DNA of 64,000 nt from Agrobacterium tumefaciens (GTDB taxonomy: Bacteria > Pseudomonadota > Alphaproteobacteria > Rhizobiales > Rhizobiaceae). The stretch's first letter is position 1, and each line of letters opens with the position of its first letter. Positions 33,616-51,110 of the stretch are shown here, piece by piece. A program made the position numbers and the translations under genes. A model generated the notes under the pieces. That model searched no databases, was not told the origin of the DNA, and was given only the letters and a program-made list of their open reading frames with translations. The stretch is taken from positions 2,572,501-2,636,500 of the forward strand of contig CP048485.1 of NCBI GenBank assembly GCA_025560025.1, read 5' to 3'.

Positions 33616-36600
33616 TCACTTTGTCTTTATTGCGGCAAGGGCCTGCTTCATGGCATCGTCATCAACCGTCACAAAAGCAGCATTTTCCGTGTAGATCAAC
33701 GCGCAGACAAATTCCTTGCCGGGATAAAGCGGTGCGAGGATTTCGCGATAAATGGCAAGCTGCGCTGTGTGGGAAAAGGGTATTTCGCGCGCCTCGCGCG
33801 GCGGCACGCGGTTGGTCTTGTAATCGACCAGAATGACCCGGTCGCCATCCACCGCCAGACGGTCGATACGGCCGGAAACGGCATAATGTTGCCTGCCGAT
33901 CGTCATGGTTCCCATGATGGAAACTTCAGCGCGACTATTCGGCGAAAATGCCGGTTGCACCGCCGGTTCGGACATGACCCGCAAAACAGCCCGTATCAGG
34001 TGCTCGCGCTCCTTGGCCGGCCAGAAACGGGCCGCGCGTTCCGCATAACGGCGGGCCGCTTCTTCCCGTTCATTCTCGGCAAAATCGGGAAGGGCCTGCA
34101 GCATGCGATGCACAAGCCGGCCGCGTTGCAGCGCCAGCGAGGAGACATCGGCCTTTTCGCCGAACAGCGGCGAACGCACGGCAAGGTCGTCGGCACCATC
34201 ATCGATGATGGTGCCCGCACCGGAAGGGCTGAGCGGCCTCGGCAATGGAGGCAGGGCAGGCAAGGGAGCAAGAAGTCCCGCCGGAAGAGCGTATTCTTCT
34301 TGCCCTTGCGGTTCCGGCACTCTTTGCGGGGCAGATGCCGGGCGAGCCTCGGATTTGCGCCAGACAAGCCCCTGCCATTCCTCGCCGTCCGCCATGAACT
34401 GTTGCGGCTGGCAATGATCCTGATTGTCAGCCAGCGCCGCCTTCACGATGGCATGCCAGCATTCTGGATTTTCTTTCTGTCCTCGATAACCGCAAACGAC
34501 CAGATGATCGGCGGCACGCGTCATCGCTACATAAAGCAGCCGGCGATATTCGTCTTCGGCGGCCGTCTTCAGGCGGTCCTCGTCGGCGCGGATGAGATGG
34601 TTGGAAAAACCGCTGCCGGGCAGCCAGACGGGGAAGGCGTCCCCATCCGCTTCGACAAAGCGTAGTTTCGGCACATGGCTGTGGTTGAAGGCTTTCGAAC
34701 CGCCATCGACGACAAAAACCACCGGCGCTTCAAGGCCCTTGGAAGCATGCACGGTCATGATGCGTACTTCGCCGCGATCCTTGTCCTGCTCGCGCTTCAC
34801 TTCCGGCGAATCCGTTTCCAGAACGGAGAGGAAAGCCTGCAGGCCGGGCAAACCGGTTCTTTCATGATCGAGTGCAAAGGACAGGAACTCGTCCAGAACG
34901 TCGCTCGCCTCGTTGCCGAGCCGGCCGAGAAACTTCTTGCGCCCGTCGTGCAGCGTCAGAACCGCGGCGAAGAAGTCATGAACCGTCGCCGCTTTTGAAA
35001 GCGCGATGAAGTGTTCCAGCTTGTTGACGACGACGGAGAAGCGGTTGTTTTCCTCCTGAGAAAGCGTTTGCAGTCTTTGCCACACGCTCTCCTTCTCGGA
35101 TCGCGTGGCGGCGATGTCGAACACGTCGTCTTCGGAAAGATTGAAAAGCGGGCTCTTCAACAGCGCAGCGAGGGAAAGATCGTCCTCGGGCAACACGACA
35201 AAACCACCAAGCGCCAGAAGATCCTGCACGGCGATATGGTCGGTCAGGCGGAGACGGTCGGCACCGGCAACGGGAATGTTCTTGCGTCGTTTCAGCTCAC
35301 GGGTCAGTGCGTTGACGAAGGCGTGCCGCTTTCTGACCAGCACCAGAATATCGCCCGGCTCGACGGCGCGTTCAACGCCTTTCTCAATGATGGTCTGGTT
35401 CCCGATCATCCCCGCGATGCGCGCCGCGATCCGACGGGCGACGATGGTCGCCGGCGCGCTTTCTCTCAACGCATCGAAGGGTGCAGTCCAGTCATCCTCA
35501 TCCTCGGCGGTTTCCGGCGCCACCATATCCCAGACTTCCACGGTACCGGGATGGCCGGCGCGGTTGGAACGGTGTTCGACAGGCTCGTTATCGGCGCTGA
35601 GGCCGCTGGCATTTTTGGGGTCGGAGAAGACCTGATCGACGGCGGCCAGCACATCCTCCGTGGAACGGAAGGACAGTGGCAGACGGATGCGGTGAAACGC
35701 CTGCTCCACCGAATCGACGCGCCTTTTCGTCTCGTCGCGTTCCTGGGAGAACCGTTCCGGCCGGGCACCCTGAAACGAATAGATCGACTGCTTTTCGTCG
35801 CCGACGGCAAAAAGCGTGCGCCGGCCCATGCGGGCGCTCTCGCCGGAAAAGAAATCCGCAGCCAGCGACTGGATGATCGACCATTGCACCGGGCTGGTAT
35901 CCTGCGCCTCATCCACGAGAATATGGTCGATACCCTGATCGAGCTTGTAGTGCACCCAGGCGCCTGCCGTATCGCGGTTGAGGAGGTTGGCGGCGCGTTC
36001 GATCAGATCTTCGAAATCGAGCTGGCTTCGCTGCTTTTTCAAATCCTCGAAATCGCCGATTAACCGCTCGGCCAGAACAAGGGCGCATTTTGTCGCCGCC
36101 AGCATCCGCACCAGACGATAGCGGTTGCGGCAGGCGACGACATGGTCCCGCGCCAGCGTCAGCGCGTCGAGGAGATCAGGTGCCGATTTCTGCATGCCTT
36201 TGTTGATGACATAGGCATCGGATTTTTTTTCACCCTTGGCCGTCAACAGCGCGGCCTCGATGAACTCCATGCGCCGCACGGGATCCGCCTGCCGTTTCGC
36301 TTCCCTGAGCGCATAGGCGACATCGATGACGCGCGATCCGCCCACTTCATCGGCAAGCGTCAGATAGGTATCGAGAGGAAGCCCCGAGAGACCGGGCAGG
36401 GGCCAAAAGGCCGCGGCTGCTGTTTCCTCGGTTTCGTCCCGTTCGATCTGCATTGCCTGCCGCAATCGCGCATCGATGTTACCGAACTGGCTTGCTTCAA
36501 GCAGAAAGGTTCGAAGGGCGCTACGATTGGCGATGATGGCGGAGAGCAGCGATTCCAGCCCGCTTTCATCTGCAAGATCAAGCACATAGGCGAGCGATTG

Positions 36601-37170
36601 GGCGAGTTCCGTGTCGCCCTCTGTCGAAACTGCCGTCAGAAGAGAGCGGCGTGCCTCAGCCAGCAGGGTGGTTGCAGCGCGGTCATCGAGAACGGAGAAG
36701 TGGCCGGCGACATTGGCTTCCAGCGGAAACTGATGCAGCAGCGCCTCGCAGAAAGCGTGGATCGTCTGGATTTTCAGCCCGCCCGGCGTTTCCAGCGCCT
36801 TGGCGAACAGCCGGCGCGCTTCGGCAAGCTTGAGCCGATCCGGTGCCTTTCCTTCGATGGCGGCGATGCGGTCCTTGAGATCGTTATCCGGCAATGTCGC
36901 CCATTCCGCCAGACGGTCGAAGACGCGGCTCGACATTTCGGATGCGGCAGCCTTGGTATAGGTGAGGCACAGGATCGCAGAGGGTCGGCATCCTGCCAGA
37001 AGCAGGCGGATGACGCGCTGGGTCAGAACATGGGTCTTGCCGGAGCCGGCATTGGCGGAAACCCAGGCGGAACTGGCCGGATCGGAGGCGAGCCGCTGCC
37101 GGTCGCTTGTCCAGTCAATCCAGCTTTGAGGCGTGTCCGTGGCAGGCCCGTGATCGATAGGATCAATCAT
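33616..37170 (-). CDS. addA: AddA helicase-nuclease subunit
   Basis: 1184 aa UvrD-like helicase fused to a RecB-type nuclease; with AddB it resects double-strand breaks for RecA. Walker A is ANAGSGKT (39-46). Other helicase motifs are HILVDEAQDTSPVQW, AVGDEKQSIYSFQGARP, LPLSFRS, IMTVHASKGLEAP and LLYVAMTRAADHL. The C-terminal nuclease core is VILVDYKTNR. The ATG at 37170 is chosen because GGGAG lies 9 nt before it; the ATG at 37179 has no spacing. It overlaps addB by 8 bp. Confidence 0.95.
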   Translation of the reverse strand: MIDPIDHGPATDTPQSWIDWTSDRQRLASDPASSAWVSANAGSGKTHVLTQRVIRLLLAGCRPSAILCLTYTKAAASEMSSRVFDRLAEWATLPDNDLKDRIAAIEGKAPDRLKLAEARRLFAKALETPGGLKIQTIHAFCEALLHQFPLEANVAGHFSVLDDRAATTLLAEARRSLLTAVSTEGDTELAQSLAYVLDLADESGLESLLSAIIANRSALRTFLLEASQFGNIDARLRQAMQIERDETEETAAAAFWPLPGLSGLPLDTYLTLADEVGGSRVIDVAYALREAKRQADPVRRMEFIEAALLTAKGEKKSDAYVINKGMQKSAPDLLDALTLARDHVVACRNRYRLVRMLAATKCALVLAERLIGDFEDLKKQRSQLDFEDLIERAANLLNRDTAGAWVHYKLDQGIDHILVDEAQDTSPVQWSIIQSLAADFFSGESARMGRRTLFAVGDEKQSIYSFQGARPERFSQERDETKRRVDSVEQAFHRIRLPLSFRSTEDVLAAVDQVFSDPKNASGLSADNEPVEHRSNRAGHPGTVEVWDMVAPETAEDEDDWTAPFDALRESAPATIVARRIAARIAGMIGNQTIIEKGVERAVEPGDILVLVRKRHAFVNALTRELKRRKNIPVAGADRLRLTDHIAVQDLLALGGFVVLPEDDLSLAALLKSPLFNLSEDDVFDIAATRSEKESVWQRLQTLSQEENNRFSVVVNKLEHFIALSKAATVHDFFAAVLTLHDGRKKFLGRLGNEASDVLDEFLSFALDHERTGLPGLQAFLSVLETDSPEVKREQDKDRGEVRIMTVHASKGLEAPVVFVVDGGSKAFNHSHVPKLRFVEADGDAFPVWLPGSGFSNHLIRADEDRLKTAAEDEYRRLLYVAMTRAADHLVVCGYRGQKENPECWHAIVKAALADNQDHCQPQQFMADGEEWQGLVWRKSEARPASAPQRVPEPQGQEEYALPAGLLAPLPALPPLPRPLSPSGAGTIIDDGADDLAVRSPLFGEKADVSSLALQRGRLVHRMLQALPDFAENEREEAARRYAERAARFWPAKEREHLIRAVLRVMSEPAVQPAFSPNSRAEVSIMGTMTIGRQHYAVSGRIDRLAVDGDRVILVDYKTNRVPPREAREIPFSHTAQLAIYREILAPLYPGKEFVCALIYTENAAFVTVDDDAMKQALAAIKTK

Positions 37171-40100
37171 CGTCGCCATCTCCCGGTTCCGCTGTCGACC
37201 ATTCCGAAACGCGGGCGAGGTGGTCATATTCCCCGCCATAGGACTGTTGCTCCTCCGGTACCAGCCGCGAGGCAAAACCATTCTCGCCCTCGCGTAGCGA
37301 ACGCACGAATTTGGCCAGCTGGTCGATGGATTCGGTCGCCAGTTCGATTGCCGATTTCGGTGCTTTCTTGCCGCCCCGGCTGGAATGCTCGTTATTCACC
37401 TGGTCGGCAAAAAAACGCTCCCCGGGACGCAGGCGAACATAGATCAGGTTTTCCGGCGTTTGCGAACCGGCCTCGCGGAAGGCGCCACGCATCAGTGCTG
37501 CCGCTTCCAGCGCAAGCTGCGGGTCGAGCAGCGCGCGTGCCTGATTGACCGAAGGCGCAAGTCCCGTTTTGTAGTCGATAATATCCGCCTGACCACCGGT
37601 CTTGATGTCGATGCGGTCGGCAATGCCGGTCAGTCTTATACCCGCCTCGGGGATTTCCTGTCCGGCACGCGCTTCGAAAAAGCTGTGGCGGATGGACGGA
37701 TAACGTTCCTTCTCCCAGTCGATGAAGGCGCGGGCCACGGCCTCGAAACGCGGCCGCCAGATGACGTCGATATGCAGGGGAAGGTCCTGCGCATCGAAAC
37801 TGTCATCCAGAATGCGCTGCATGGCTTCAAGCGAGGCCGGCGTGCCGGGAATATGGCCCTCGCGGGAATAGCGCTCGATGATCGCATGGTAGAGCGTGCC
37901 ACGGTCAGCGGCGTTGGGATCGCGGTTGAACGGATGGAGAGGATCGAGCCGCAGGATACGCCGCGCATAAATTGCGTAAGGGTCGCGGCGCAGCCTGCCC
38001 ACCTCGCTGAAGGAATAGCTTTTCGGCTGCAACTCGGCCGGCGGTTTCGGGGCGGGGCGCTTTGCCGCTTCCTGGTCGATGCTGGCATCCATCAGGGCCG
38101 CCCAATGGCGATAGGTCTCCCCGCGCTTCTTTAGCTGGCTGGCAAAATCCTCGCCGCCCAGCGCCAGAAGCCGTTGCAGCCAGCGAGAGGCGACGGCAGG
38201 TGTGGAACCCTGCCGCAGCGCGCGCGTGTAAAAAATCTGTCGGGTGCCGTTCGCCATCTCGAAATCATGCGCCAGCTGGCCGATGCGTCGTTCCGGCGGC
38301 TCCAGCCCGATGGCTGTCTTCATGTTGCGGGATAGAAACGGATTATTTGCCGTCTGGCCCGGCCAGAGCCCTTCGTTCAGGCCGCCGATGACGATGGTAT
38401 CGACACTCTGCAATCTTGCTTCAAGTGCGCCAAAAATGAAAATGCGTGGATGGCGCATGGATCGCGGCTTGATGGATTCTCCCGCCACGAGTGCCGCAAA
38501 TATATCGACCCATTGCGGTCCGTCGGCATCGAGAACGTCGCCGCTTTCCATCAATTCCCCAAACAGGCTGGAAAGTTTGTCGCCGGCCTCGCCGGACCAG
38601 AGCGCGGCAAGATCGTTGTTGTCATCCGCGCAGATGGCTTCGATCACGCGGCCCGTCCGCGCCGCCCAATCGGAAAGCGGCAATTTATCCGTGAAGGACC
38701 GGCCTGACCGGTCGCGGCGGACGAATGTAGCGCCGAGCGGGTCGATCGAAAGAGTGATCCTGCGCGCCAGATCGCGCGCGGCATCCACGCTTCCCTCAGG
38801 CAGTGCAAGCCGCCATGCGGGTGGGTGCCGGTCATCGCGCTGTGCGGCCAGTTGCGCATCGACAACCGCTTCCAGATTGCCGATTTCGGTTTCGACGCGA
38901 CCTCCCCTGAGTGCGATCAACTCCAGCGCTTTCGACGCTTTCGTAAATGCCGCCTCTGAAAGCCCGAAGCGGCTGAGCGGATGTTTCAGGAGGGAAATGA
39001 CCGGTACCGGATCTCCAGGTCTGAGGATCGCTTCCAGCACCAATTGCGTCAGTCCCGCCTGTGGCGTGGCGGATAGTGGCGTGCCGGCCGAATCGTCCGC
39101 TTCAATGCCGAATCTCTGCAACTCGGTCGCCACGCGCCGCGCCAGTCCGCGATCAGGCGTTATCAGCGCTGCCTGAGAGGGGCGGCCAGCGCCCGGTGTT
39201 TCAAGCGCCAGTCTGAGCGCTACAGAGATTGCGGTTGCTTCTTCGCGTTCGTTCGCAGCCTCTATCAGGGTTGCTGCTGCGAAGGCATCGTCAAAAAAGC
39301 CGGGTTGCCTGTCCTCGCGCCAGCGGTTCCAGTCACTTGTGGATTTGGCCGGTGCGAGCGCGGCCGAAAACACCGCCGCGCGCCTTTCGAGATCACTGTC
39401 GATGGCTCCGATCTGAATGACGTCGTCACGCAGGATGCCGAGCTTCTGCAATAGCATGTAGAGCCCATATTGCGAGTGGGTGCGGCTCGAAGGATCGGTG
39501 GGGTCCTCGGCAATCGCTTCCCATTGTTCCTCCGGCATCGAAAGATCGAGACCGGGAAGCACGACGACGCCCTGGGGCAGGGAGGCGACGGAGGCGATGA
39601 GGTCTGCCGCGGCCGGAATGGAACCCGTGGAGCCAGCAACGATGATCGGTCCGGTATCCGGCAAATTGGCAAGCCGGTTCGCTTCCGCCCTCAATATGCC
39701 GTTGCGATGCCGGCCTGCGGAAGAACGGTTGAGTTCGGCAAGGCGCGCTGGCCAGAAAATACTGGCGATCTTCAGGAAATCCGCGGTCAGCTGCCACCAT
39801 TGGGCGTGATCACCGGTATCGAGATGCTGAAGAGCCTCCCATTCCTTTTCTTCCGTATCCATCGCATCGATCACTTCGCCAAGCGCGCGCGCCAGCCATA
39901 TGGCGTCGGCGGGGCTGGCAGGGGCAACGAGCGGCGAATCGGAATGGATCGCCCGGATGGCATCCGGCAGGCTGTTACGCCATGCCAGAATGAGGCGCGC
40001 CAGCTCGATGAGCCGGCCGGTGCCGGAAATAGGCGGCGCCAGATCCATGATTTCAGGATTTTCGATCTCGAAAAAGCCGCTGTCGTCATCCGTTTCGCCG

Positions 40101-40348
40101 AGCGGCCGGATCAGCGGCAGAATGGCGGATCGGCCACCCAGGAGATCGACGAATTCGGAGCGCAGCACGCGGGCGGAGCGCCGCGTCGGCACATAGATGG
40201 TTACCTTGGCGAGTGAAAGCGGATCGGCCGGATCGTATTTATAGCCTGATGTCAGTGTCCCGTCACACAGCGTTTCCGCGAGCGTTTTGAGGAACGGTGT
40301 TCCCGCAGCGATCGTCAGGACGCGCTTTTCATGGTGGGAGAGCGTCAT
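37163..40348 (-). CDS. addB: AddB subunit of the double-strand break repair complex
   Basis: 1061 aa. An inactive-helicase-like N-terminal region is followed by a PD-(D/E)XK nuclease near the C-terminus (GIADRIDIKTG...ADIIDYKTG). The four cysteines that hold the Fe-S cluster in Firmicutes AddB are not apparent; only two cysteines are easily seen. The rhizobial-type AddB is assigned from length, the nuclease motif and its position directly before addA. It overlaps murU by 4 bp and addA by 8 bp, so the subunits are coupled for stoichiometric synthesis. Confidence 0.93.
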   Translation of the reverse strand: MTLSHHEKRVLTIAAGTPFLKTLAETLCDGTLTSGYKYDPADPLSLAKVTIYVPTRRSARVLRSEFVDLLGGRSAILPLIRPLGETDDDSGFFEIENPEIMDLAPPISGTGRLIELARLILAWRNSLPDAIRAIHSDSPLVAPASPADAIWLARALGEVIDAMDTEEKEWEALQHLDTGDHAQWWQLTADFLKIASIFWPARLAELNRSSAGRHRNGILRAEANRLANLPDTGPIIVAGSTGSIPAAADLIASVASLPQGVVVLPGLDLSMPEEQWEAIAEDPTDPSSRTHSQYGLYMLLQKLGILRDDVIQIGAIDSDLERRAAVFSAALAPAKSTSDWNRWREDRQPGFFDDAFAAATLIEAANEREEATAISVALRLALETPGAGRPSQAALITPDRGLARRVATELQRFGIEADDSAGTPLSATPQAGLTQLVLEAILRPGDPVPVISLLKHPLSRFGLSEAAFTKASKALELIALRGGRVETEIGNLEAVVDAQLAAQRDDRHPPAWRLALPEGSVDAARDLARRITLSIDPLGATFVRRDRSGRSFTDKLPLSDWAARTGRVIEAICADDNNDLAALWSGEAGDKLSSLFGELMESGDVLDADGPQWVDIFAALVAGESIKPRSMRHPRIFIFGALEARLQSVDTIVIGGLNEGLWPGQTANNPFLSRNMKTAIGLEPPERRIGQLAHDFEMANGTRQIFYTRALRQGSTPAVASRWLQRLLALGGEDFASQLKKRGETYRHWAALMDASIDQEAAKRPAPKPPAELQPKSYSFSEVGRLRRDPYAIYARRILRLDPLHPFNRDPNAADRGTLYHAIIERYSREGHIPGTPASLEAMQRILDDSFDAQDLPLHIDVIWRPRFEAVARAFIDWEKERYPSIRHSFFEARAGQEIPEAGIRLTGIADRIDIKTGGQADIIDYKTGLAPSVNQARALLDPQLALEAAALMRGAFREAGSQTPENLIYVRLRPGERFFADQVNNEHSSRGGKKAPKSAIELATESIDQLAKFVRSLREGENGFASRLVPEEQQSYGGEYDHLARVSEWSTAEPGDGDDD

Positions 40349-41082
40349 GCAGAGCGTTTTTCCCTGAATTGCCGGATGATGTCTTCGGCATCGTCAATCG
40401 CATCAGGCGTGCCGACGGTGATCCAGTGGCCATCCAATGAAAGTCCGAAAAGCCGGTCTTTTTCGATGGCACGGTCGAAATAGATATTGAGGTTGAAGGC
40501 GTCCGCCGGTGCATCATCGAGCAGACGCGAATCCATGGCGATGGCGCCGGCATAAACCACGGGGTTCGGGTCACCGTCGCGATATCGCGCCAACGTCGCG
40601 TCACTGGAGAGATTGAAATCCCTCTTGCCGTTATGTCCGGTGGTGCGGTCCATGTCGACGCAGAGCAGGGCCATATCCATGCGTGCGGGATTGAAAAAAT
40701 GCCCGAGCTTGCGCAGATTGCTGACGGCGTTCCGCTGTTCACCAATCCAGAAAAGATCGGCGTTCATGACTAAAACTGGACCGGGCTCCAGGAGCTTGAG
40801 ACCCTTGGCAAGTCCGCCACCGGAATTCATCAGCTGCGAGCGCTCGTCGGAAATAAGGATTTCGGCGTCGGTGCGGTTTTCGAGATGGGCAATCATCAGT
40901 TCGGCGTGGTGATGCACGTTGACGACGATCCTTTCCGCCCCGGCTTCGACAAGGGCGTCGAGCGCGTAGTCGATCATCGGCTTGCCGGCAATCTTGACGA
41001 GCGGCTTCGGAATTGTATCCGTAATCGGGCGCATCCGCGTGCCGAGCCCTGCGGCCAACACCATCGCATTCTTGATCGTCAT
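40345..41082 (-). CDS. murU: nucleotidyltransferase, probable MurNAc-1-phosphate uridylyltransferase
   Basis: 245 aa. N-terminal NTP-transferase motif LAAGLGTRMRPIT with the PKPLV lysine, then MNADLFW with the metal aspartate. ITVGTPDAIDDA is the C-terminal end typical of sugar-1-phosphate nucleotidyltransferases. In Pseudomonas, MurU makes UDP-MurNAc from recycled MurNAc-1-P after AmgK phosphorylation. Here an AmgK-like kinase domain is encoded directly upstream, which favours this role, though a mannose-1-P-type substrate cannot be ruled out. Start ATG at 41082; no strong ribosome site, and the earlier frame starts are less likely. Confidence 0.78.
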   Translation of the reverse strand: MTIKNAMVLAAGLGTRMRPITDTIPKPLVKIAGKPMIDYALDALVEAGAERIVVNVHHHAELMIAHLENRTDAEILISDERSQLMNSGGGLAKGLKLLEPGPVLVMNADLFWIGEQRNAVSNLRKLGHFFNPARMDMALLCVDMDRTTGHNGKRDFNLSSDATLARYRDGDPNPVVYAGAIAMDSRLLDDAPADAFNLNIYFDRAIEKDRLFGLSLDGHWITVGTPDAIDDAEDIIRQFREKRSA

Positions 41083-41105
41083 CGTGGTCAACCGTTTTTC
41101 AGTCT

Positions 41106-42611
41106 TTAAAATTCCATGCCCATACGGACGCACCAGTCTCTGAGCGGCGCAAGTTCGGGATGCGAAAGCGCCGTAGCGAGATAGCGAAGCGTCCTCGGCA
41201 TATGTTTCATATAACCGGGTTTGCCATCGCGTTCCAACAGCCTTACCCAGATGCCGGCCAGCTTGCAGTTCCGCTGCGCCGACATGATGGCGAAAGCCTT
41301 GAGAAAGGACGCCTCATCGAAAGACGGCTCGATTCGTCTATTGTCGAGATAGCGCGAAAGCAGGCGTGCCTGCAGCTCGGGCGAAATGGTGACCCGCGCA
41401 TCCTGCACGATGGAGGCGAGATCGTAGGCCGTTGGCCCGATCATCGCATCCTGAAAATCGATCAGGCCGACCTGTCGGACGCCGGAATTCTGCTGTTGCC
41501 AGAGAATGTTCGGCGAATGAAAATCGCGCAGCAGAAGCCCCGTTTCGCACCCGCCAAGCGCATCGATCAACTCGTCCCACAGGGCGTAATAATCGCTCTT
41601 CTCGCCATCGGACAGTGGTTTGCCGCGTTTGTGGGGCAGATACCATTCTACCAGCAGAGAGACTTCGATCTTCATCGCCTGCCGGTCGAAGGGAGGAACC
41701 TCGTAGGTGCTGCCGTCACCCAACTGCAGCACGTCAGGCTGCGGAGATTGATGAAGGGAGGCGAGGCAGGCGACGCTTTGCAGATAACGTTCCTCTATCG
41801 GCGCTCCGTCCGGCGCAAGCACGCCATCCCGCCCAAGGTCTTCCAGCAGGAGAATACCCTGATTGATATCCGCCGCCAGAATCTCCGGTGCGCAAAAGCC
41901 GCTGTTTCGCAGATAATTGCCGATCGCGACGAAGGAACCTGCATCCTGGGCAAGATGGGCGATTTCCGCATAGGTCTTTCCGTCCGCAATGACCGCCCCT
42001 TTCAAGGGACGTCGCCAATCCATCAGGATGAGGTCGGAACCGTCGGTGGAAATGGCCTCATAGGCGCGTGTAGACGCATCGCCGCTCAGAAAACGGCGGG
42101 CCGCATCGCCTTTGCCGTTTTTAGCCAGGAATTCGCGAATGGCGAAAACACGCTCGAGCCGCGCTTTGAGTTTTGCCGGGGCCTCGATGACGGCCAGACG
42201 GCCTTCACCCGAATTTGTGAGCGTGAGGGTGATGGTCTGCTCTGGCGGCAGAACCTCGGCGGCGATATCCGGCCATTCGATCAGGCAGATGCCGTCCTCC
42301 AGCATCTCGTCGATGCCAAGCTCGTCCAGTTCCGAAACATCCGAAAGCCGGTAAAGATCGAGATGAGCGACAGGAATACGAGCGGAATAGGTCTGGATGA
42401 TCGTGAAGGTGGGGCTTGGAACCTCGAGATCGGGCTCATCCGCCATTGCCCGGATGAAGGCGCGGGCGAGAGTGGATTTGCCGGCACCGAGATCGCCGAT
42501 GAGCGCGAGGCAATCGCCGGCCTTCAAAGCCAGAGCGAGGTCCTCACCCAACCGGATGGTGTCTTTTTCTCCCTCGAGGGAAATGGTGATCGGCAAGATG
42601 TCTTCGCTCAT
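41106..42611 (-). CDS. tsaE: fusion of TsaE (t6A ATPase) and an AmgK-like sugar kinase
   Basis: 501 aa in two parts. Residues 1-145 are TsaE: Walker A GDLGAGKS (39-46), the SPTFTI loop (66-71), and IEWPD (111-115). TsaE is the ATPase of the tRNA t6A37 complex. Residues about 170-501 are a phosphotransferase: GDASTRAYEAI (177-187), the catalytic loop LRDFHSPNIL (361-370), and LIDFQDAMIGP with Asp385. The loop's HxD-type position reads LRD, not H-x-D. AmgK in Pseudomonas phosphorylates MurNAc/GlcNAc at the anomeric carbon. It overlaps divL by 4 bp and is 23 bp before murU. Confidence 0.88.
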   Translation of the reverse strand: MSEDILPITISLEGEKDTIRLGEDLALALKAGDCLALIGDLGAGKSTLARAFIRAMADEPDLEVPSPTFTIIQTYSARIPVAHLDLYRLSDVSELDELGIDEMLEDGICLIEWPDIAAEVLPPEQTITLTLTNSGEGRLAVIEAPAKLKARLERVFAIREFLAKNGKGDAARRFLSGDASTRAYEAISTDGSDLILMDWRRPLKGAVIADGKTYAEIAHLAQDAGSFVAIGNYLRNSGFCAPEILAADINQGILLLEDLGRDGVLAPDGAPIEERYLQSVACLASLHQSPQPDVLQLGDGSTYEVPPFDRQAMKIEVSLLVEWYLPHKRGKPLSDGEKSDYYALWDELIDALGGCETGLLLRDFHSPNILWQQQNSGVRQVGLIDFQDAMIGPTAYDLASIVQDARVTISPELQARLLSRYLDNRRIEPSFDEASFLKAFAIMSAQRNCKLAGIWVRLLERDGKPGYMKHMPRTLRYLATALSHPELAPLRDWCVRMGMEF

Positions 42612-45190
42612 TCTGCAGCGATGGAATGCGGGCGTGTGCCGGAAGGGATGCGGCAGGTGACGGTGGTGCCGTTGCCCGGCCGGCTGTCGATGCTGACGGT
42701 GCCGTGATGGAGGCTGACGAAGCTTTCCACGATGGAAAGGCCAAGCCCTGCGCCGGTCCGCCGCCCGCCATTACCGCGCGTCTCGAAGCGGTCGAATACG
42801 CTCTTCAGCATGTCTTCCGGAATGCCCGGCCCCTTGTCCGCCACCGAGAACAGGAAGTCACCTTCACTACGCTGGCAGGAAAGCTGAACGGCAGAGCCTT
42901 CCGGCGCGAAGTTGATCGCATTGGTCAGGAGCTTGATGAGGATCTGCTTCAGGCGCTGATGATCGGCCACCAGACTGCCAAGATGGGCAGGGGCGATGAT
43001 CTCGAGCGAAATGCCGCTCTCCTGCAGCCGGTCGGCAATCTGCACCGAAACGTCTTCGAGCAATTCGTTCAGATCGTTTTCCGAATAATTCAGCTGCATG
43101 ATGCCGGCATCAACGGTCGCGAGATCGAGAATATCGTTGACGATGGTGAGCAGAACCGAGGATGAGGTGGAAATATGGTCGAGATATTCCGCCTGCCGTT
43201 CCGTCAATTGTCCGAGACCCGGCGTTTTCAGGAGGTCGGTGAAACCGATGATGTTGGTCAGCGGCGAGCGCAATTCGTAGGAGACATGCTGCACGAAATC
43301 GTTCTTCAGCTCGTCGGCCTTGAGCAGCGCGTCGTTCTTTTCCTTGAGTGCCCGCTCGGCCCGCACGCTGTCAGTCATGTTGACGAAGGTCAGCATGGTC
43401 TGGGCATCCGGCAGCGGGATGATGGCGAAGTCGAGCACGAGACCGGAGAGCAGCTCCAGCGTACCCTGTTTGGACGGACGTTCATCGTCGAAGCTGGTGA
43501 TGAACTGGCTGAAGGCGCGCCAGCCGTCCGGCCTGTCATAGGATGGTGTGCAGGCCGTCTCAATGGCGCGGATATGCGTTCCCGTCTCAGCCTGTTCAGC
43601 AGTCACGCCCCAGAGCGCCCGGAACGCCGGATTGGAAAGACGAATGCGGCCATCCGCACCGAACACGGCGACACCTTCTGCCAGATGGTCGATGGTTTCG
43701 CCCTGCACTTTCACCAGCGTGTTATAACGCATCTGCAGATCGACCTGCTCGGTCAGGTTTTCGAATACCCAGGTTGCACCACCCTGCGGATGGGCGGTCG
43801 CGATGACCCGCAAGGTCTGGCCGTTAGGCAGATGCCAGAGATCTGTCTTGGTATCGAGTGAGCGGTAGACGGAGAGCGCCGTCTCCTTCCAGTTCTTCCA
43901 GTTCAGCTGCTCTGGCAATTTGCCGGCGGTCCGCAGCCTGTCCAGGAGCTCGGAATTATCAGGCCCGGATTCGAGGAAAACCAGATCGAAACCCCACAGG
44001 GTGGCGAAAGCCTGGTTGTAGAATTGCAGCCGCTGTCGGCCGTCGAAAATGGCGACGGGCGTTGCCAGATGGTCGAGCGTTTCGGCGTGGCTTTTCAGAA
44101 CCCGCTTGAGTTCTTCGCCGATCGTCTCCGCTTCGGTGGCATCAATGGCGATGCCGGCCGAACCGCCTGCCGTCTTGATATCGACGACATCGAAGAAGGT
44201 GCGGTTTCCGGAAACCACTGTCGAAATACGGTCGTGATAGGGTGATTCCGGCGTCGCAGCCGCGCGTATCTTCTGCCGGGTGACGGTGTTCAGAAGCTCG
44301 CGTTTCTCGTGAACGGCCTGTTCGGCATCGCGCGCATCCACCGCCTGCGAATAGGCATGGTTGACCCAGGTGAGTTCGCCTTCAGCGTTGCGCCGCCAGA
44401 CGGGTTGCTCAATGGAATCCAGAAGTTCCTGAAACGTCGAGACCGAGGCAATCAGGCGTTCGCGCTCCACCTGCAATTCTGCAAGTTCGGCACGCAGATT
44501 GTTAAGCGCGATGAAACGCGCAAAAGCATTGCCGCCGGAAACCCGGCCTTGAACCTCAACGACTTCGCCGCGCTGCGTCTCGATGGTCAGATCGAAACTC
44601 TGTGCGTGGCTGCGCAGCTTTTCCAGCGATTTTTCAAGCTGGCTTGCCGATGAGGGTTTCAGCCAGCGCCCGAAGGCCAGAAAATCATGGTCGGCCTGCG
44701 GTGCGCCCGTTTCCACGGGCAATTGCCCGAGAAATTCGGGACGCTTGTCAGCGCCGTCCCAGATGACGATGCGTCGGCTTTTGTCAGAAATCAGCGCTTC
44801 GTATTTCGCGATCTTGTGGTGGGACTGGGCAAGTGCCTGACGGTATTCGCTGCTTTCCGCCTCTATATTGCCGCGCTGGCGCACCAGCCAGACGACGGAG
44901 AACAGCGTTGCCGAAAGCATGCCGACAAAGAGCGAATAGGTGATGGTTTCCCCGGACGAAAACAGCCGTGCACCCGTCTTGGCTACAATGCCGTCCTGCG
45001 CCAGTGCCGCACTTGCCGAGCCAGCCAGAACCGTACCCGACATCAGGACGGGAAGCCATGAAAAGCCTGTCCGAACCGCACTGACGACCCGCTGGCAACG
45101 CGCAAGAGCCGCGCTCAATGCCACGCCAGCATGCGTGTTTTCAACGCGTTGAACTGTCTGCTCGCGCAGATCCGAATTGTGAACCGTCAT
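42608..45190 (-). CDS. divL: DivL-type cell-cycle sensor (tyrosine pseudo-histidine kinase)
   Basis: 860 aa. An N-terminal hydrophobic pair (about 45-65 and 82-103) precedes several PAS domains (about 250-600). The dimerisation H-box reads VSYELRSPL: Tyr638 replaces the usual histidine, the hallmark of DivL. The ATPase domain is intact (Asn757, DKGPGIP 785-791, GAGLGLS 813-819). In Caulobacter, DivL activates CckA and so the CtrA pathway, and binds DivK. Its 3' end overlaps the TsaE-kinase gene by 4 bp, and Caulobacter too has tsaE next to divL. Confidence 0.92.
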   Translation of the reverse strand: MTVHNSDLREQTVQRVENTHAGVALSAALARCQRVVSAVRTGFSWLPVLMSGTVLAGSASAALAQDGIVAKTGARLFSSGETITYSLFVGMLSATLFSVVWLVRQRGNIEAESSEYRQALAQSHHKIAKYEALISDKSRRIVIWDGADKRPEFLGQLPVETGAPQADHDFLAFGRWLKPSSASQLEKSLEKLRSHAQSFDLTIETQRGEVVEVQGRVSGGNAFARFIALNNLRAELAELQVERERLIASVSTFQELLDSIEQPVWRRNAEGELTWVNHAYSQAVDARDAEQAVHEKRELLNTVTRQKIRAAATPESPYHDRISTVVSGNRTFFDVVDIKTAGGSAGIAIDATEAETIGEELKRVLKSHAETLDHLATPVAIFDGRQRLQFYNQAFATLWGFDLVFLESGPDNSELLDRLRTAGKLPEQLNWKNWKETALSVYRSLDTKTDLWHLPNGQTLRVIATAHPQGGATWVFENLTEQVDLQMRYNTLVKVQGETIDHLAEGVAVFGADGRIRLSNPAFRALWGVTAEQAETGTHIRAIETACTPSYDRPDGWRAFSQFITSFDDERPSKQGTLELLSGLVLDFAIIPLPDAQTMLTFVNMTDSVRAERALKEKNDALLKADELKNDFVQHVSYELRSPLTNIIGFTDLLKTPGLGQLTERQAEYLDHISTSSSVLLTIVNDILDLATVDAGIMQLNYSENDLNELLEDVSVQIADRLQESGISLEIIAPAHLGSLVADHQRLKQILIKLLTNAINFAPEGSAVQLSCQRSEGDFLFSVADKGPGIPEDMLKSVFDRFETRGNGGRRTGAGLGLSIVESFVSLHHGTVSIDSRPGNGTTVTCRIPSGTRPHSIAAE

Positions 45191-45322
45191 CCCCGGTCTG
45201 TCTCCGTCCTATGTGCCGCATCTTCGACAAGACATCCCATTTCGTCCCCGCCGCCCTTTGGCGTGTCCGAATCAAGTCTGATGACAATACCGCCTTCATA
45301 AATCTGCGGAAAGGGAGCGCGC

Positions 45323-45361
45323 AAAAAAGATGCCGCGCGCTTTGTCAAGCGCGCGGCATCT
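45323..45361 (-). terminator. ahcY terminator
   Basis: A perfect 15-bp stem (45328-45342 with 45347-45361), 4-nt loop, and on the minus strand a run of six T. It lies 38 bp past the ahcY stop. Confidence 0.93.
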
Positions 45362-45398
45362 AGATATTGTGTAATTTCAGTGGATATTAACTATGAAA

Positions 45399-46799
45399 TT
45401 AATATCTGTAGTGTTCCGCCTTGAACGGACCCTGCTTGGAGATGCCGATATAATCTGCCTGCAGGTCGGTCAGTTCCGTCAGGCGCACGCCGAGCTTCTC
45501 GAGATGAAGGCGTGCGACCTTCTCGTCGAGGTGCTTCGGCAGCACATAAACTTCGTTCTTGTATTCGCCCTGCTTGGTGAAGAGCTCGATCTGGCCCAGC
45601 ACCTGGTTGGTGAAGGACGCAGACATGACGAAGGACGGGTGACCGGTGGCGTTGCCGAGGTTCAGCAGGCGGCCTTCGGAAAGAAGAATGATGCGGTTGC
45701 CCTTCGGGAACTCGATCATGTCGACCTGCGGCTTGATGTTCGTCCACTTCAGGTTACGCAGCGATGCGACCTGAATCTCGTTGTCGAAGTGGCCGATATT
45801 GCCGACGATCGCCATGTCCTTCATCTCGCGCATATGCTCGATGCGGATCACGTCCTTGTTGCCGGTGGTGGTGATGAAGATATCCGCCGACGAAATGACG
45901 TCTTCCAGGCGAACGACTTCAAAACCGTCCATGGCGGCCTGCAATGCGCAGATCGGATCGATTTCGGTGACCTTCACGCGGGCACCGGCGCCCTGCAGCG
46001 ATGCTGCCGAACCCTTGCCCACATCGCCGTAACCGCAGACCACGGCGACCTTGCCGGCCATCATCACGTCGGTTGCGCGGCGAATGCCGTCGACGAGCGA
46101 TTCCTTGCAGCCGTATTTGTTGTCGAACTTCGACTTGGTGACGCTGTCATTGACGTTGATGGCAGGGAAGGGCAGCAGGCCCTTCTTGCTGAGGTCGTAA
46201 AGACGGTGAACGCCGGTCGTCGTTTCTTCGGTAACGCCCTTCAGCGCGTCGCGCTGCTTGGTGAACCAGCCGGGCGAAGCCTTCAGGCGCTTGTTGATCT
46301 GCGCGAAGAGGATCTCTTCTTCTTCGGAGCCGGGATTGGAAAGAACGTCCTCACCGGCTTCGGCGCGCGCACCGAGCAGGATGTACATGGTGGCGTCGCC
46401 GCCATCATCGAGGATCATGTTGGAGAGACCGCCATCGGTCCACTGGAAAATCTTGTCGGTATATTCCCAATATTCCGTCAGGCTTTCACCCTTGACGGCG
46501 AAGACCGGGATGCCGGCTGCCGCGATAGCCGCTGCCGCATGGTCCTGCGTCGAGAAAATGTTGCAGGACGCCCAGCGGATATCCGCGCCGAGTTCCTTGA
46601 GCGTCTCAATCAGAACGCCGGTCTGGATCGTCATGTGAAGAGAACCGGTAATGCGTGCACCCTTCAGGGGCTTGCTCTCGCCGAATTCCTTGCGGCAGGA
46701 CATCAGGCCAGGCATTTCGGTTTCGGCGATGTCCAGTTCCTTGCGGCCGAATGCGGCAAGGTTGATATCGGCGACGATGTAGTCCTTCTCAAGGCTCAT
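45399..46799 (-). CDS. ahcY: S-adenosylhomocysteinase
   Basis: 466 aa NAD-dependent hydrolase of SAH to homocysteine and adenosine, which keeps methylation going. His55 is in GSLHMTIQT, Asp131 in LDDGGD, the NAD loop [11 protein letters not shown] at 256-266, and the C-terminal KAEHYRY reaches into the neighbouring subunit. It lies 129 bp after ptsH, in a gap with operator-like repeats, so it may have its own promoter besides read-through. Confidence 0.96.
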
Positions 46800-46890
46800 G
46801 AGGTTCTCCAGATCAGAAATGCCGTGCCTGTCAGCCCGGCTTTTAAACGTAGCAGGGGTTTAGCAGGCCGCAAACGATCTGGCAATGATG

Positions 46891-46918
46891 ATATAAAGAA
46901 GTCTTTATGTCTTTATAT
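46891..46918. promoter_or_regulatory. operator-like inverted repeats upstream of ahcY
   Basis: ATAAAGA (46893-46899) and TCTTTAT (46902-46908) form a 7-bp palindrome with a 2-nt spacer. A second TCTTTATAT (46910-46918) pairs with ATATAAAGA (46891-46899). Position, about 92-119 bp upstream of the ahcY start, suits a repressor. In Proteobacteria, ahcY is often under the ArsR-type regulator SahR; linkage to it is inferred. Confidence 0.55.
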
Positions 46919-46928
46919 GGGGGATGGG

Positions 46929-47204
46929 TCAGGCTTCTTCGCCGAAGCGGTCGGCGACAAGTGCCTCGAGTGCGGCAAGCGCTTCTTCCGCCTGGTTGCC
47001 GCTTGCCTCGACATAGACGCTGCAGCCGGGGCTGGCCGCCAGCATCATGAGACCCATGATGGAGGTGCCGCCAACGGTCATACCATCCTTGGAAACAGTG
47101 ATCGTCGCGTCGAATCCCTCGACCATCTGCACGAACTTCGCGGATGCCCGGGCGTGGAGACCGCGTTTGTTGATGATCGGTAATTCCCGGGAGAATGGCG
47201 ACAT
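46929..47204 (-). CDS. ptsH: phosphocarrier protein HPr
   Basis: 91 aa from the ATG at 47204, with GAGAAG 7 nt upstream. The phosphorylation site is His17 in KRGLHARASAKF, and the regulatory serine is Ser48 in GGTSIMGLMML, the target of HprK. With no sugar-specific EIIBC in view, it belongs to a PTS-Ntr type relay that reports metabolic state. Downstream of manX by 11 bp. Confidence 0.94.
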   Translation of the reverse strand: MSPFSRELPIINKRGLHARASAKFVQMVEGFDATITVSKDGMTVGGTSIMGLMMLAASPGCSVYVEASGNQAEEALAALEALVADRFGEEA

Positions 47205-47215
47205 GGGCTGACTTC

Positions 47216-47617
47216 TCACTTGCCGCTCAAAACGCGGCTGGCGACGTTGATATATTTGCGGCCGGCGTCAGATGCATCCTGGAGCGCCTTGTCCATGTTG
47301 TCTTCGCTGCGAACGCCGGCGAGCTTTATCAGCATGGGAAGATTGACGCCGGCGATGACTTCGACATTGCCGTTATTCATGACGGAAATCGCGAGATTGG
47401 AGGGCGTGCCGCCGAACATATCCGTCAGGATGATGACGCCATTGCCATCATTGGCGCGTGTGACGGCGTCGATGATATCCTGCCGGCGCTGATCCATGTC
47501 GTCTTCGGGACCGATACAGACCGTCTCGATCAATTTCTGGGGACCGACGACATGCTCCAACGCATGGCGAAACTCCTCAGCCAGCTTGCCATGGGTGACA
47601 AGCACTAGTCCGATCAT
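47216..47617 (-). CDS. mannose-family PTS EIIA domain protein
   Basis: 133 aa, single EIIA-Man domain. His9 (VLVTHGKLAEE) is the phosphorylation site, and TDMFGGTPSNLA is the conserved active-site loop. It lacks the EIIB domain and any transporter partner. In alphaproteobacteria this protein (EIIA-Man) is known from the HprK-EIIA-HPr cluster and affects regulation rather than sugar uptake; that role is inferred here. Gene order hprK, manX, ptsH is conserved in Rhizobiales. Confidence 0.92.
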   Translation of the reverse strand: MIGLVLVTHGKLAEEFRHALEHVVGPQKLIETVCIGPEDDMDQRRQDIIDAVTRANDGNGVIILTDMFGGTPSNLAISVMNNGNVEVIAGVNLPMLIKLAGVRSEDNMDKALQDASDAGRKYINVASRVLSGK

Positions 47618-47644
47618 GAAATGCTCCCTTGCACACGCACTCTC

Positions 47645-47670
47645 ATTGCCGACTATCGCAACGCGGCAAT
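47645..47670. repeat. inverted repeat between hprK and the EIIA gene
   Basis: ATTGCCG (47645-47651) and CGGCAAT (47664-47670) with a 12-nt spacer, in the 119-bp gap. No T run. Function unknown. Confidence 0.35.
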
Positions 47671-47736
47671 CCTGTCCATCGGTGGGATTTCATCTTGATG
47701 AGGAAAATGCGAATCGCAAGCCTAAAATCGCCCGAA

Positions 47737-48207
47737 TCACGGTCGCTTCACATTCGTTTTAAAAAGATTTTGAGCAAGTGCAGCAAATTTTCCATAGGGC
47801 GTAAGACTGGAAAGCGGAATGCGCAGAAGCGGAAGATGCCCGCCGCAGGGCAGCAACACCACCTCGTCATCTTCGGGAAGTCTGGGATTTTCGGGTGAAA
47901 GAACTGTCGTGACGGCGAAATCCAGTGGCGCATTCGCAATGCTTTTGAGTGAAACAATGCCGCTGCCGCGCAGTTCCAGCAATCCGGCGATCGCTTCCGG
48001 CCGCTCCGCAATGATGGTTTCGCCGTCGCGATACACGAAAATCTGATCGTCCGCGATCAATGCGGCCGTCAATCCGCAGCGTTCAGCCTCGACCAGGAAG
48101 CTGAAGGCAAGCTCGCTTTTGCCGCTGCCGGAGGGTCCGGTGAAGAGGATGCCGGTCTTGTCTACGACGATGGCGGTAGCGTGCAGGTTGAAGCGTTCAG
48201 CGTTCAT
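47737..48207 (-). CDS. hprK: short HPr kinase/phosphorylase
   Basis: 156 aa, catalytic domain only; Firmicute HprK has about 310 aa with an extra N-terminal domain. Walker A GPSGSGKS is at 24-31. The signature LELRGSGIV is near 77-85, and Asp53/Asp54 sit in IADDQIF. It phosphorylates the regulatory serine of HPr. Its ATG lies 11 bp inside the 3' end of chvG, so synthesis is probably coupled to the two-component sensor. Confidence 0.92.
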   Translation of the reverse strand: MNAERFNLHATAIVVDKTGILFTGPSGSGKSELAFSFLVEAERCGLTAALIADDQIFVYRDGETIIAERPEAIAGLLELRGSGIVSLKSIANAPLDFAVTTVLSPENPRLPEDDEVVLLPCGGHLPLLRIPLSSLTPYGKFAALAQNLFKTNVKRP

Positions 48208-49987
48208 GGGTCTCGGCCGCCGGCAGCGACAGGGTGAAGCGCGCGCCGGAAATCACACCGTATTTGTCGACGACATTTTCCGCCCTGAGGCTGCCGCCAT
48301 GGGCTTCGGCGATCTGGCGGCTGATGGAAAGGCCAAGGCCGGAATTCTGCCCGAAGCCTTCGCTGGCCGGCCGGTCGGTGTAGAAGCGCTCGAAAATCCG
48401 GTCGATATCTTCTGCCTGAATGCCCGGTCCGTTGTCTTCCACCTGCACAAGGCAACGATCCTTGTGGCGAGAAAGACGCACGGTGATGCGGCCGCTTTCC
48501 TCCGCAACGAAAGAGCGTGCATTCTCGATGAGGTTGGTGACGATCTGGCCTATGCGAAGATCGTGGCCATTCACCACGAAAGAGGTCTTGGTGCCTGCCT
48601 TCCGGTCGACGACATAGTCGATCGTCACGCTTTTCTTTTTGGTGCTTATCTGGCGGGATATATCCACCAGACCCTTCATCAGGACATCGAGATCAAGCGG
48701 CGAGGCATCGGCGCGCGCCAGCTCGGCATCGAGCCGCGAGGCATCCGAAATATCGCTGATGAGGCGGTCGAGGCGGCGCACATCGTGGAAAATGATCTCG
48801 GTCAGACGCTGCTTGGACTCTTCGGTCTTGGCGCGCGGCAGCGTTTCAACGGCGCTACGCAGTGACGTCAGCGGGTTTTTGAGCTCGTGGCTGACATCGG
48901 CAGCGAAACTTTCGATCGCATCGATACGGTCGTAAAGCGCGGTCGTCATTTCACGCAACGCTATCGAAAGGTTGCCGATCTCGTCCTGACGTGCTGAGAA
49001 ATCCGGTATTTCCTCACGGGTTCTTGCCCCACGGCGAACGCGGATCGCGGCGGCCGAAAGCCGCCGCAGCGGCGTGGCGATGGTGGAGGAGAGGAGCAGC
49101 GACAGCACGATATTGACCAGCGTGGCGATGCCGAAGACGCGCATGATCGCAAGGCGTTCCGCATGCACGATCTTGTCGATATCGCCCGCCTGCGTCGAAA
49201 GCAGCAGCACGCCAAGCACAGCGCGGAAGCGCTGTACCGGCACGGCGACCGAAACGATCAGCTCACCCTTTTCGGTCACGCGCACCACGGCACCACGAAC
49301 GCCGGTCAGCGCATTCATCACCTCCGGATAGATGGAGCCGTCGCCGCCCGGCGCTTCCTTGTATTGCGGCAGGCTGCTTGGTTGCAGCATGCGGTTGAAC
49401 ATGCTGGTGAACCATTCGCCCCAGGTCTGGGTTTCCGGTGTCACCGGCGGCAGATCGAAGCGCAGGACCTGTCCGCGCGAATAAAGGTGGCGGGAATCGA
49501 GAAGCAGGTTGGCATCGGCATCGAACAGCCGCGCGCGCGTGCGGGTCGGCGAAATCAGCCGGCGCAGCACCGGCGCCACCCGTTCCGGATTGATCGGAAA
49601 ACTCAGGTCCTCGTCATTGGGGGCAGGGGTAATGCTCTGCCCCGCCTGCAGTTCGAGAAGCTTTTCCGGATTGATGGTGATCGAGTTGGTGTCAACAGAG
49701 GCGGAGGCGGAAATGGCGCCGGCGATGATTTCACCCTGCGTCAGAAGGCTTTCCACCCGCGCGTCGATCAGCCCCTCGCGGAACTGGTTGAGGTAAAGAA
49801 TGCCGCCGACAAGAACGACTGTCGCCGCAACGTTGAAGAACAGAATACGGCGCGTGAGGCTGGAAAACACCGCATTGCCGAAAATGCGCCGGATGATCGT
49901 CAGCGGATGGATACGATGGCGGCGTTCGCTGCCGCGTTCTTCGGCATCGTCACTATCCGAGACGGTTTCCGGCGTTTTCTTCAACAC
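48197..49987 (-). CDS. chvG: sensor histidine kinase ChvG
   Basis: 596 aa. Transmembrane segments at about 47-67 and 280-301 flank a roughly 210-residue periplasmic sensor domain. HAMP follows, then the H-box FAADVSHELKNPL with His367, and ATP-lid motifs DNGPGI and SGLGLS. In Agrobacterium, ChvG senses acid and the host environment with ChvI and is required for virulence; ExoR, its inhibitor, is not in this window. The start is a GTG with GAGGA 9 nt upstream. It lies 56 bp after chvI. Confidence 0.95.
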   Translation of the reverse strand: MLKKTPETVSDSDDAEERGSERRHRIHPLTIIRRIFGNAVFSSLTRRILFFNVAATVVLVGGILYLNQFREGLIDARVESLLTQGEIIAGAISASASVDTNSITINPEKLLELQAGQSITPAPNDEDLSFPINPERVAPVLRRLISPTRTRARLFDADANLLLDSRHLYSRGQVLRFDLPPVTPETQTWGEWFTSMFNRMLQPSSLPQYKEAPGGDGSIYPEVMNALTGVRGAVVRVTEKGELIVSVAVPVQRFRAVLGVLLLSTQAGDIDKIVHAERLAIMRVFGIATLVNIVLSLLLSSTIATPLRRLSAAAIRVRRGARTREEIPDFSARQDEIGNLSIALREMTTALYDRIDAIESFAADVSHELKNPLTSLRSAVETLPRAKTEESKQRLTEIIFHDVRRLDRLISDISDASRLDAELARADASPLDLDVLMKGLVDISRQISTKKKSVTIDYVVDRKAGTKTSFVVNGHDLRIGQIVTNLIENARSFVAEESGRITVRLSRHKDRCLVQVEDNGPGIQAEDIDRIFERFYTDRPASEGFGQNSGLGLSISRQIAEAHGGSLRAENVVDKYGVISGARFTLSLPAAETHER

Positions 49988-50043
49988 GTATTTAAGTCCT
50001 CGCCACCACTTTTCGGGTGGTCTCTTCCGATTTGCGTGCCGAT

Positions 50044-50772
50044 TCAGGCCGCTTCGCGGAAGCGATATCCTACGCCATAAAGCGTTTCAATCATATCGAA
50101 GTCGCCGTCGACCAGTTTGAACTTCTTGCGAAGGCGCTTGATGTGGCTGTCGATCGTACGGTCATCCACATAGACCTGCTCGTCATAGGCGGCATCCATC
50201 AGCGCGTCGCGGCTTTTCACCACGCCCGGCCTCTGCGCCAGCGAATGCAGGATGAGGAATTCGGTAACGGTGAGCGTTACCGGTTCGCCCTTCCAGGTGC
50301 AGGTGTGGCGCTCCTGGTCCATGGCGAGCTGCCCGCGTTCAAGCGTGCGCGCCTGCTGGTCCGCAGTCGGTTTCGCCGCGCCGCCACCGGCGACGGGGGA
50401 GGCGTCGCGGCTGCTGGCGCGGCGCAGGATGGCCTTGACGCGCTCCACCAGAAGACGCTGCGAAAAAGGCTTTGTGATGAAATCGTCAGCGCCCATCTTC
50501 AGGCCGAACAATTCGTCGATCTCTTCGTCCTTGGACGTCAGGAAGATAACGGGAATATCCGATTTCTGGCGAAGACGCCGCAAAAGCTCCATGCCGTCCA
50601 TGCGGGGCATCTTGATGTCGAAAATGGCGAGCTGCGGCGGGCGGGCGATCAGCCCGTCAAGCGCGGACGCGCCGTCCGTATACGTTTCGACCCGGTACCC
50701 TTCGGCTTCGAGCGCGATCGATACCGAAGTGAGAATGTTCCGGTCATCGTCGACAAGCGCGATAGTCTGCAT
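50044..50772 (-). CDS. chvI: response regulator ChvI
   Basis: 242 aa from the ATG at 50772, which has GGAG 9 nt upstream; the upstream ATGs at 50793 and 50787 lack this. The receiver domain has Asp8-Asp10 and the phosphorylated Asp52 in [11 protein letters not shown] Ser/Ala-rich linker leads to an OmpR-type winged helix (about 150-240) with [16 protein letters not shown]. It controls acid-induced, envelope and virulence genes; pckA, just upstream and divergent, is ChvI-dependent in Agrobacterium. Confidence 0.96.
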
Positions 50773-51110
50773 GTAGTTGGTCTCCATCGTCATTTTCTCG
50801 TAACTCCCGACATTCACCCAGCCAAGGTTGTGCGCCGTGAGCCACTCTCTTGAGTATAAAGGTGGAACAAATTGTGGCAAAGGAAATCTCACAGCCAAAT
50901 CCGCAGCGCGATCAGGGGATTTCGGTGAAAACGCCGCAGCCGGATTTTAATGCGTCTTCAACCGATTTAAAAAGAAATAAAATCTTTTAAATCGATTAAT
51001 ATATTGAAATCACTAAGTTTTTTAAAGTGAAGCTCTTGCGTTTCTAAAAGCTGCCACGTATTTTCCGAGGAAATTTCAACGTCCTTATCGTCATTAACAA
51101 GGAACGCGTC
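50773..51110. promoter_or_regulatory. divergent chvI-pckA intergenic region
   Basis: 338 bp without a gene, the second longest gap. The half near pckA is very AT-rich. It contains a perfect 10-bp inverted repeat (50963-50972 with 50985-50994) and must hold both promoters. I could not fix -35/-10 elements. No tRNA or small gene is visible. Confidence 0.7.
50963..50994. repeat. 10-bp inverted repeat upstream of pckA
   Basis: CGATTTAAAA and TTTTAAATCG with a 12-nt spacer, centred about 130 bp before the pckA start. It is a candidate regulator site. Confidence 0.55.

Follow-up and report, generated by a model that had tools for sequence, protein, structure and literature searches.

AmgK, the N-acetylmuramate/N-acetylglucosamine kinase, was first worked on in Pseudomonas, and TsaE (YjeE), an ATPase of the t6A machinery, is essential in other bacteria. 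A fosfomycin Tn-seq study of A. tumefaciens implicated AmgK (Atu0026) and MurU (Atu0025) in MurNAc recycling and named Atu1614 at the MupP step, and its main text makes no mention of TsaE (PMC9790009). Deletion of amgK in Caulobacter led to MurNAc accumulation and fosfomycin sensitivity, according to the accessible part of PMC13046382, and fosfomycin sensitivity was reported as well in the accessible part of a second Caulobacter study (PMC11980594). The function of the AmgK-MurU part is largely published already. No paper discussing a TsaE-AmgK fusion was found in our literature search, most subscription journals lying outside its coverage; the passages found in a t6A review (PMC9654439) do not mention the fusion, and the accessible passages of PMC8770471 hold nothing relevant on domain essentiality.

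In the window, i.e. the whole 64,000-nucleotide stretch of A. tumefaciens DNA that was analysed, a TsaE and an AmgK-type kinase were found within one gene (41106-42611, minus strand), a single ATG-started frame of 501 aa with no internal stop. The nearest named record of the protein, from Agrobacterium genomosp. 13 CFBP 6927, is 98% identical to it. The TsaE half (42162..42611, minus strand, residues ~1-150) matched Pfam TsaE PF02367 over residues 14-135 (E 8.9e-35) and scored 103.2 bits against NCBIfam TIGR00150, over the curated cut-off of 60.1. The kinase half (41106..42161, minus strand, residues ~151-501 and the stop codon) matched Pfam APH PF01636 over residues 173-425 (E 1e-24), which identifies it as an APH-fold kinase domain, and its best NCBIfam family was AmgK NF045698 (E 1.5e-70, residues 159-494). 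These matches uphold the sequence-only reading, which had seen a TsaE and an AmgK-like kinase in one frame, and the motif positions it gave are correct, namely Walker A GDLGAGKST from residue 39, GDASTR from 177, LRDFH from 361 (LRDFHSPN) and Asp 385 in IDFQDA.

The joined TsaE-kinase open frame was detected in 112/121 sampled genomes of the order, in 107 of them as a single match covering most of the query. The other five (G009, G016, G024, G057 and G067) gave partial or two-segment matches, being drafts or split alignments in which a single frame spans parts of both halves. All 80 named loci that were retained, from 121 confirmed, were fused too. Since 112 of the 121 genomes join both halves in an open frame, the fusion is neither chance nor a sequencing slip, and a frameshift between the halves, which had been proposed as a check, was not upheld. 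The TsaE-kinase fusion is genuine, and its oddity is largely explained. In G074 (L166), a stop codon interrupts the kinase half of the joined frame. No AnmK was detected in G074 or in G031 and G109, two further genomes of its family. In G018 and G032, the kinase alone was visible, at a contig edge. No kinase match was obtained in 6 of the 121 genomes (G005, G056 and G093; G007; G051 and G088), in which the AmgK model was likewise negative. Stand-alone TsaE was found at five loci of the order, in genomes without AmgK.

The TsaE half has an intact Walker A P-loop together with SPTFT, DLYR and EWP, which are common among the aligned relatives and which, with Walker A, we take to be the motif set of TsaE. 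The solved structures related to this half in the PDB comparison were TsaE structures. The fusion was the only TIGR00150 match in the window's genome (E up to 1e-8), and at the same threshold TIGR00150 matched exactly once in 118/121 genomes of the order and not at all in G088 and the two contig-edge cases (G018 and G032). Since no second TsaE match occurs in this genome, the N-terminal half must supply the TsaE function, if anything does; this single-copy half is the only candidate found for t6A synthesis with TsaB and TsaD. It is like TsaE (YjeE) in its cut-off score, motifs and single copy, whereas it differs in that the protein bears an extra kinase of ~350 residues at the C-terminus. For one TsaE chain in the PDB (6nak, 6s84), an old label reads 'predicted to have essential role in cell wall biosynthesis', a prediction that may go back to the linkage of tsaE with cell-wall genes.

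In the kinase half, LRD stands where HxD is usual, and it had been suggested from this that the kinase may be altered. We examined 153 aligned kinases, of which 114 were fused in the order (80 of them the related named set), 12 were fused outside it and 27 were not fused; the counts omit L112, L164 and L166, the second copies L161 and L162, and L137 and L151, where TsaE was not found. The catalytic-loop triplet was LRD in 139/153. The position held by His in many APH kinases was Leu in 143 rows, Met in 4, Ile in 2, Phe in 1 and His in only 3, while the catalytic Asp (Asp 363 in the window) was D in 153/153. Asp 385 (IDFQDA) is present in the window and in motif variants of the aligned kinases. 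The closest solved relative, PDB 3csv ('aminoglycoside phosphotransferase'), aligned over residues 155-490 and has HRD at the place of the LRD. Thus, LRD is ordinary in the examined alphaproteobacterial AmgK-type kinases, fused or not, and because it occurs in 139 rows and the catalytic Asp in every row, the kinase is not altered; a kinase damaged by LRD is excluded by the same counts. Purifying selection was observed on both halves, with dN/dS of 0.077-0.185 for the kinase half and 0.066-0.179 for the TsaE half in the 6 usable Agrobacterium pairs of 9, dS being >1 in two of the six; the pairs with L042, L043 and L111 were dropped, as the ungapped comparison was spoiled, probably by an indel.

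The second NCBIfam match of the kinase half was AmgK as well (NF045759, E 1.3e-33), and the next kinase family, capreomycin phosphotransferase, reached only E 3.4e-6. AmgK therefore fits the C-terminal half best, which answers the question whether some other family would suit it better, although the scores were below the curated equivalog cut-offs (238.3 bits vs 500 for NF045698 and 116.5 vs 550 for NF045759). Given the distance between these E-values, another APH subfamily is unlikely. The five stand-alone AmgK-type proteins scanned were all under the AmgK cut-off too (277-372 bits). As both the fusion and these stand-alone relatives fall short of it, we named the half an AmgK-type kinase and not a certified equivalog. 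It shares with AmgK the APH fold, the family match over residues 159-494, the catalytic Asp and an adjoining murU, whereas it sits behind TsaE, scores below the curated cut-offs and has LRD instead of HxD. Second AmgK-like kinases, 35-36% identical to the fusion's kinase half, were seen elsewhere in two fusion-bearing genomes (L161 in G017 and L162 in G045).

The next gene on the minus strand (40345..41082) encodes a murU-type N-acetylmuramate alpha-1-phosphate uridylyltransferase, and its junction with the fusion was read. Its open frame extends to a GTG at 41133, but the ATG at 41082, 23 bp past the fusion stop, is the likelier start. The best curated family of its product was MurU NF045697 (E 8.8e-62), with NF045761 matching too (E 4.6e-39), both under their cut-offs (208.5 bits vs 370 and 134.6 vs 250); its second-best structure match was PDB 8hhd, which has this enzyme among its names. 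With MurU as the best match of the 40345-41133 frame, the likeness to the AmgK-MurU pathway that had been noticed from the letters alone holds good. MurU was matched in 114/121 genomes of the order (E up to 1e-20) and AnmK in 109/121, including the window's genome (G000; PF03702, 288 bits).

MurU was absent in 4/6 kinase-less genomes vs 3/115 others (Fisher p 5.9e-5) and AnmK in 3/6 vs 9/115 (p 0.013), both tests ignoring kinship and draft gaps and the six kinase-less genomes representing 3 families only. Two of these (G005 with L153 and G056 with L154), from one family, retained MurU and AnmK without an AmgK match, which indicates that the recycling module is not strictly linked. In the second of them, murU lies directly after the stand-alone tsaE. 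For MupP, 2 of 9 phosphoglycolate-phosphatase-like matches were checked and neither fits the MupP model best. The C-terminal half probably recycles a cell-wall sugar.

Upstream of the fusion lies a PAS-domain sensor histidine kinase gene (42608..45190, minus strand; Pfam PAS_7, HisKA and HATPase_c); its stop codon and the start of tsaE share 4 bp (ATGA). Both belong to a same-strand run from 50898 to 33616 on the minus strand, in which the gene names were given from domains and synteny. It starts with a response regulator, a ChvG-type sensor, HPr kinase, EIIA-man, HPr and ahcY, and continues with the PAS histidine kinase, tsaE-amgK, murU, addB and addA. The response regulator (50044-50898, minus strand) and the sensor kinase (48197-49987, minus strand) form the two-component pair at the head of the run (48197..50898; Pfam Response_reg, Trans_reg_C, Stimulus_sens_1 and Sensor_TM1), six to seven genes upstream of the fusion. 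By gene order the pair appears to be ChvI/ChvG, and the run would form one operon with it.

The genes in 33616-50898 follow the same order as the 16 genes of the bvrR/bvrS operon in Brucella abortus, in the accessible part of the table in PMC9491525, where the counterparts of tsaE-amgK and murU are listed as TsaE and mannose-1-phosphate guanylyltransferase. By synteny with that partly accessible table, the latter is probably MurU and the Brucella TsaE probably carries AmgK. In the accessible text of PMC9731437, chvG and chvI are Atu0033 and Atu0034, and both rise on PBP1a depletion. The numbering of Atu0026/Atu0025 in the part of PMC9790009 at hand fits the window order, with chvG as Atu0033. 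From the gene numbers and the distance of the pair from the fusion, Atu0026 would be its orthologue by position; that it is itself fused is presumed from this position and from the named Agrobacterium relatives. Cell-wall recycling genes thus lie downstream of a ChvG/ChvI-type system that is reported, in the accessible text of PMC9731437, to respond to cell-wall stress.

The reason for the fusion was stated as not known in the sequence-only reading, and relatives outside the order supply part of the answer. We examined 41 such loci, chosen and not drawn, of which 13 were joined among the matches listed and 28 came from 27 families. Twelve were fused, including L152, which had not been recognised as joined in the match listing; 2 had a single in-frame stop, 25 had separate frames and 2 had no TsaE found (L137 and L151). 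Wherever the frames were separate (25 chosen loci), tsaE and amgK lay side by side. A possible amgK start, the start codons being inferred, overlaps the tsaE end in 20/25 of these pairs, by 4 bp in 13 and by 8 bp in 7, and in the other 5 the start candidates are at -17, -14, +7, +24 and +19. A murU frame was found in 39/41 stretches, the exceptions being L128 (contig edge) and L151. The tsaE-amgK-murU cluster is found across the class, its frames mostly overlapping, so that a small indel or the loss of a stop would suffice for a merger. As the separate genes are adjacent at 25 loci and overlapping at 20, the fusion is best understood as a merger of overlapping genes of an operon. In L121 and L122, tsaE and amgK are in the same frame with exactly one stop codon between them and an ATG at once after it; they are possible intermediates of fusion or fission.

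In a tree of 86 kinase domains, built by a quick method with no bootstrap and omitting 71 of the 80 named loci, L112 (duplicate), L166 (internal stop) and L164 (contig-edge fragment), 40 fused kinases of the order formed one well-supported group. Three long-branched fused rows from one family of the order (f4) fell outside this main group, and their placement is unsure. The fused label needs 5 changes on the tree, at least 2 of them forced by well-supported branches, in a method that cannot separate gains from losses of the fusion. Several independent fusions are likely on these sequences, and one fusion with later splits is a possible alternative history.

We consider it quite probable that the protein consists of two independently working enzymes in one chain, which arose by the merger of neighbouring, overlapping operon genes. 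Adjacent and overlapping tsaE and amgK, belonging to one operon, would have become a single chain. Its N-terminal half would be the cell's only TsaE, the ATPase of tRNA t6A synthesis; its C-terminal AmgK-type kinase would convert recycled MurNAc to MurNAc-1-phosphate, from which MurU, the product of the next gene, would make UDP-MurNAc. Both activities would be independent of each other in this strain, and the fusion would be a near-neutral outcome of an old operon linkage that fixes them in equal amounts. We infer the merger, in preference to splitting, and this neutrality; that the order has kept the fusion almost without exception could also mean that it is useful and not neutral.

The joined frame in 112/121 genomes, together with fusions in several families outside the order (12/41 chosen loci), could also be taken to mean that the halves are functionally coupled, i.e. 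that MurNAc supply, AmgK catalysis or ATP use in one half alters how active or abundant the other is and ties t6A formation and translation to cell-wall turnover. The same-strand run headed by a ChvG/ChvI-type pair, in the order of the Brucella 16-gene operon as far as PMC9491525 was accessible, and the rise of chvG and chvI (Atu0033 and Atu0034) on PBP1a depletion, given in the accessible text of PMC9731437, fit such coupling. However, the stand-alone TsaE of AmgK-less genomes of the order (5 loci) indicates that TsaE does not need the kinase, 25/41 chosen outside-order loci keep two genes, gene overlap accounts for the merger without any coupling, and no Atu002x gene is named in the main text of PMC9731437. 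Thus, coupling seems unlikely. Quite doubtful is its wider form, in which the fusion would join the two processes both physically and by regulation. Cell-wall turnover, through MurNAc supply and the ChvG-ChvI stress output, would then determine how active or abundant the sole TsaE is, and with it t6A modification and translation order-wide, with translational coupling doing the same in overlapping-gene relatives.

The fusion might also be only partly real at the protein level, if the kinase were made as a separate product from an internal start or by cleavage. Among the 120 proteins listed of 7926 matches, which formed our name survey, P0068 (400 aa, with its start within the TsaE half) and P0087 (364 aa) had no TsaE domain match, and in relatives with a separate amgK that gene starts close to the corresponding position. 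These two records may, however, be start-site mistakes or fragments, and we regard a separate kinase as rather improbable.

Very improbable is the reading that the AmgK name over-annotates the C-terminal half, which would then be an APH-fold kinase with another specificity or an inactive remnant. Its score under the NCBI AmgK cut-offs would agree with this, as would the name of 3csv, which is just 'aminoglycoside phosphotransferase'. On the other hand, AmgK is by far the best family (1.5e-70 vs 3.4e-6 for capreomycin phosphotransferase), murU adjoins, the catalytic residues are conserved, the half is under purifying selection, and loss of the kinase accompanies loss of MurU (4/6 vs 3/115, Fisher p 5.9e-5, uncorrected for kinship). 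A fosfomycin phenotype is also published for the locus that is orthologous by position (PMC9790009, accessible in part). Finally, an assembly or frameshift artefact joining two genes can be dismissed, as the joined frame recurs in 112/121 genomes of the order and 80/80 named loci.

Source prefixes apart, 2 of the 120 listed names start with 'bifunctional tRNA' (P0043 and P0087) and one protein (P0115) is named N-acetylmuramate 1-kinase, most printed names being TsaE or YjeE alone. P0043, 87% identical to the window protein, is named 'bifunctional tRNA (adenosine(37)-N6)-threonylcarbamoyltransferase complex ATPase', the rest of the name presumably being '/phosphotransferase'; this NCBI record has the same architecture as the window protein, and its visible name gives no sugar substrate. 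The parts and the pathway are known and the architecture is on record, while the comparative account is new, namely the overlapping neighbours in the class, the order-wide fused form, the single-copy TsaE and the unaltered kinase.

A puzzling gene is thereby settled, in which a tRNA factor thought essential and a probably dispensable recycling kinase share one frame. The main effect of the fusion may be that the recycling enzyme is hidden from annotation. A regulatory role of the fusion, if there is one, would tie cell-wall recycling to translation. As a TsaE thought essential and a kinase that is probably dispensable lie in one frame, automatic names and essentiality calls made on whole genes may mislead in this order.
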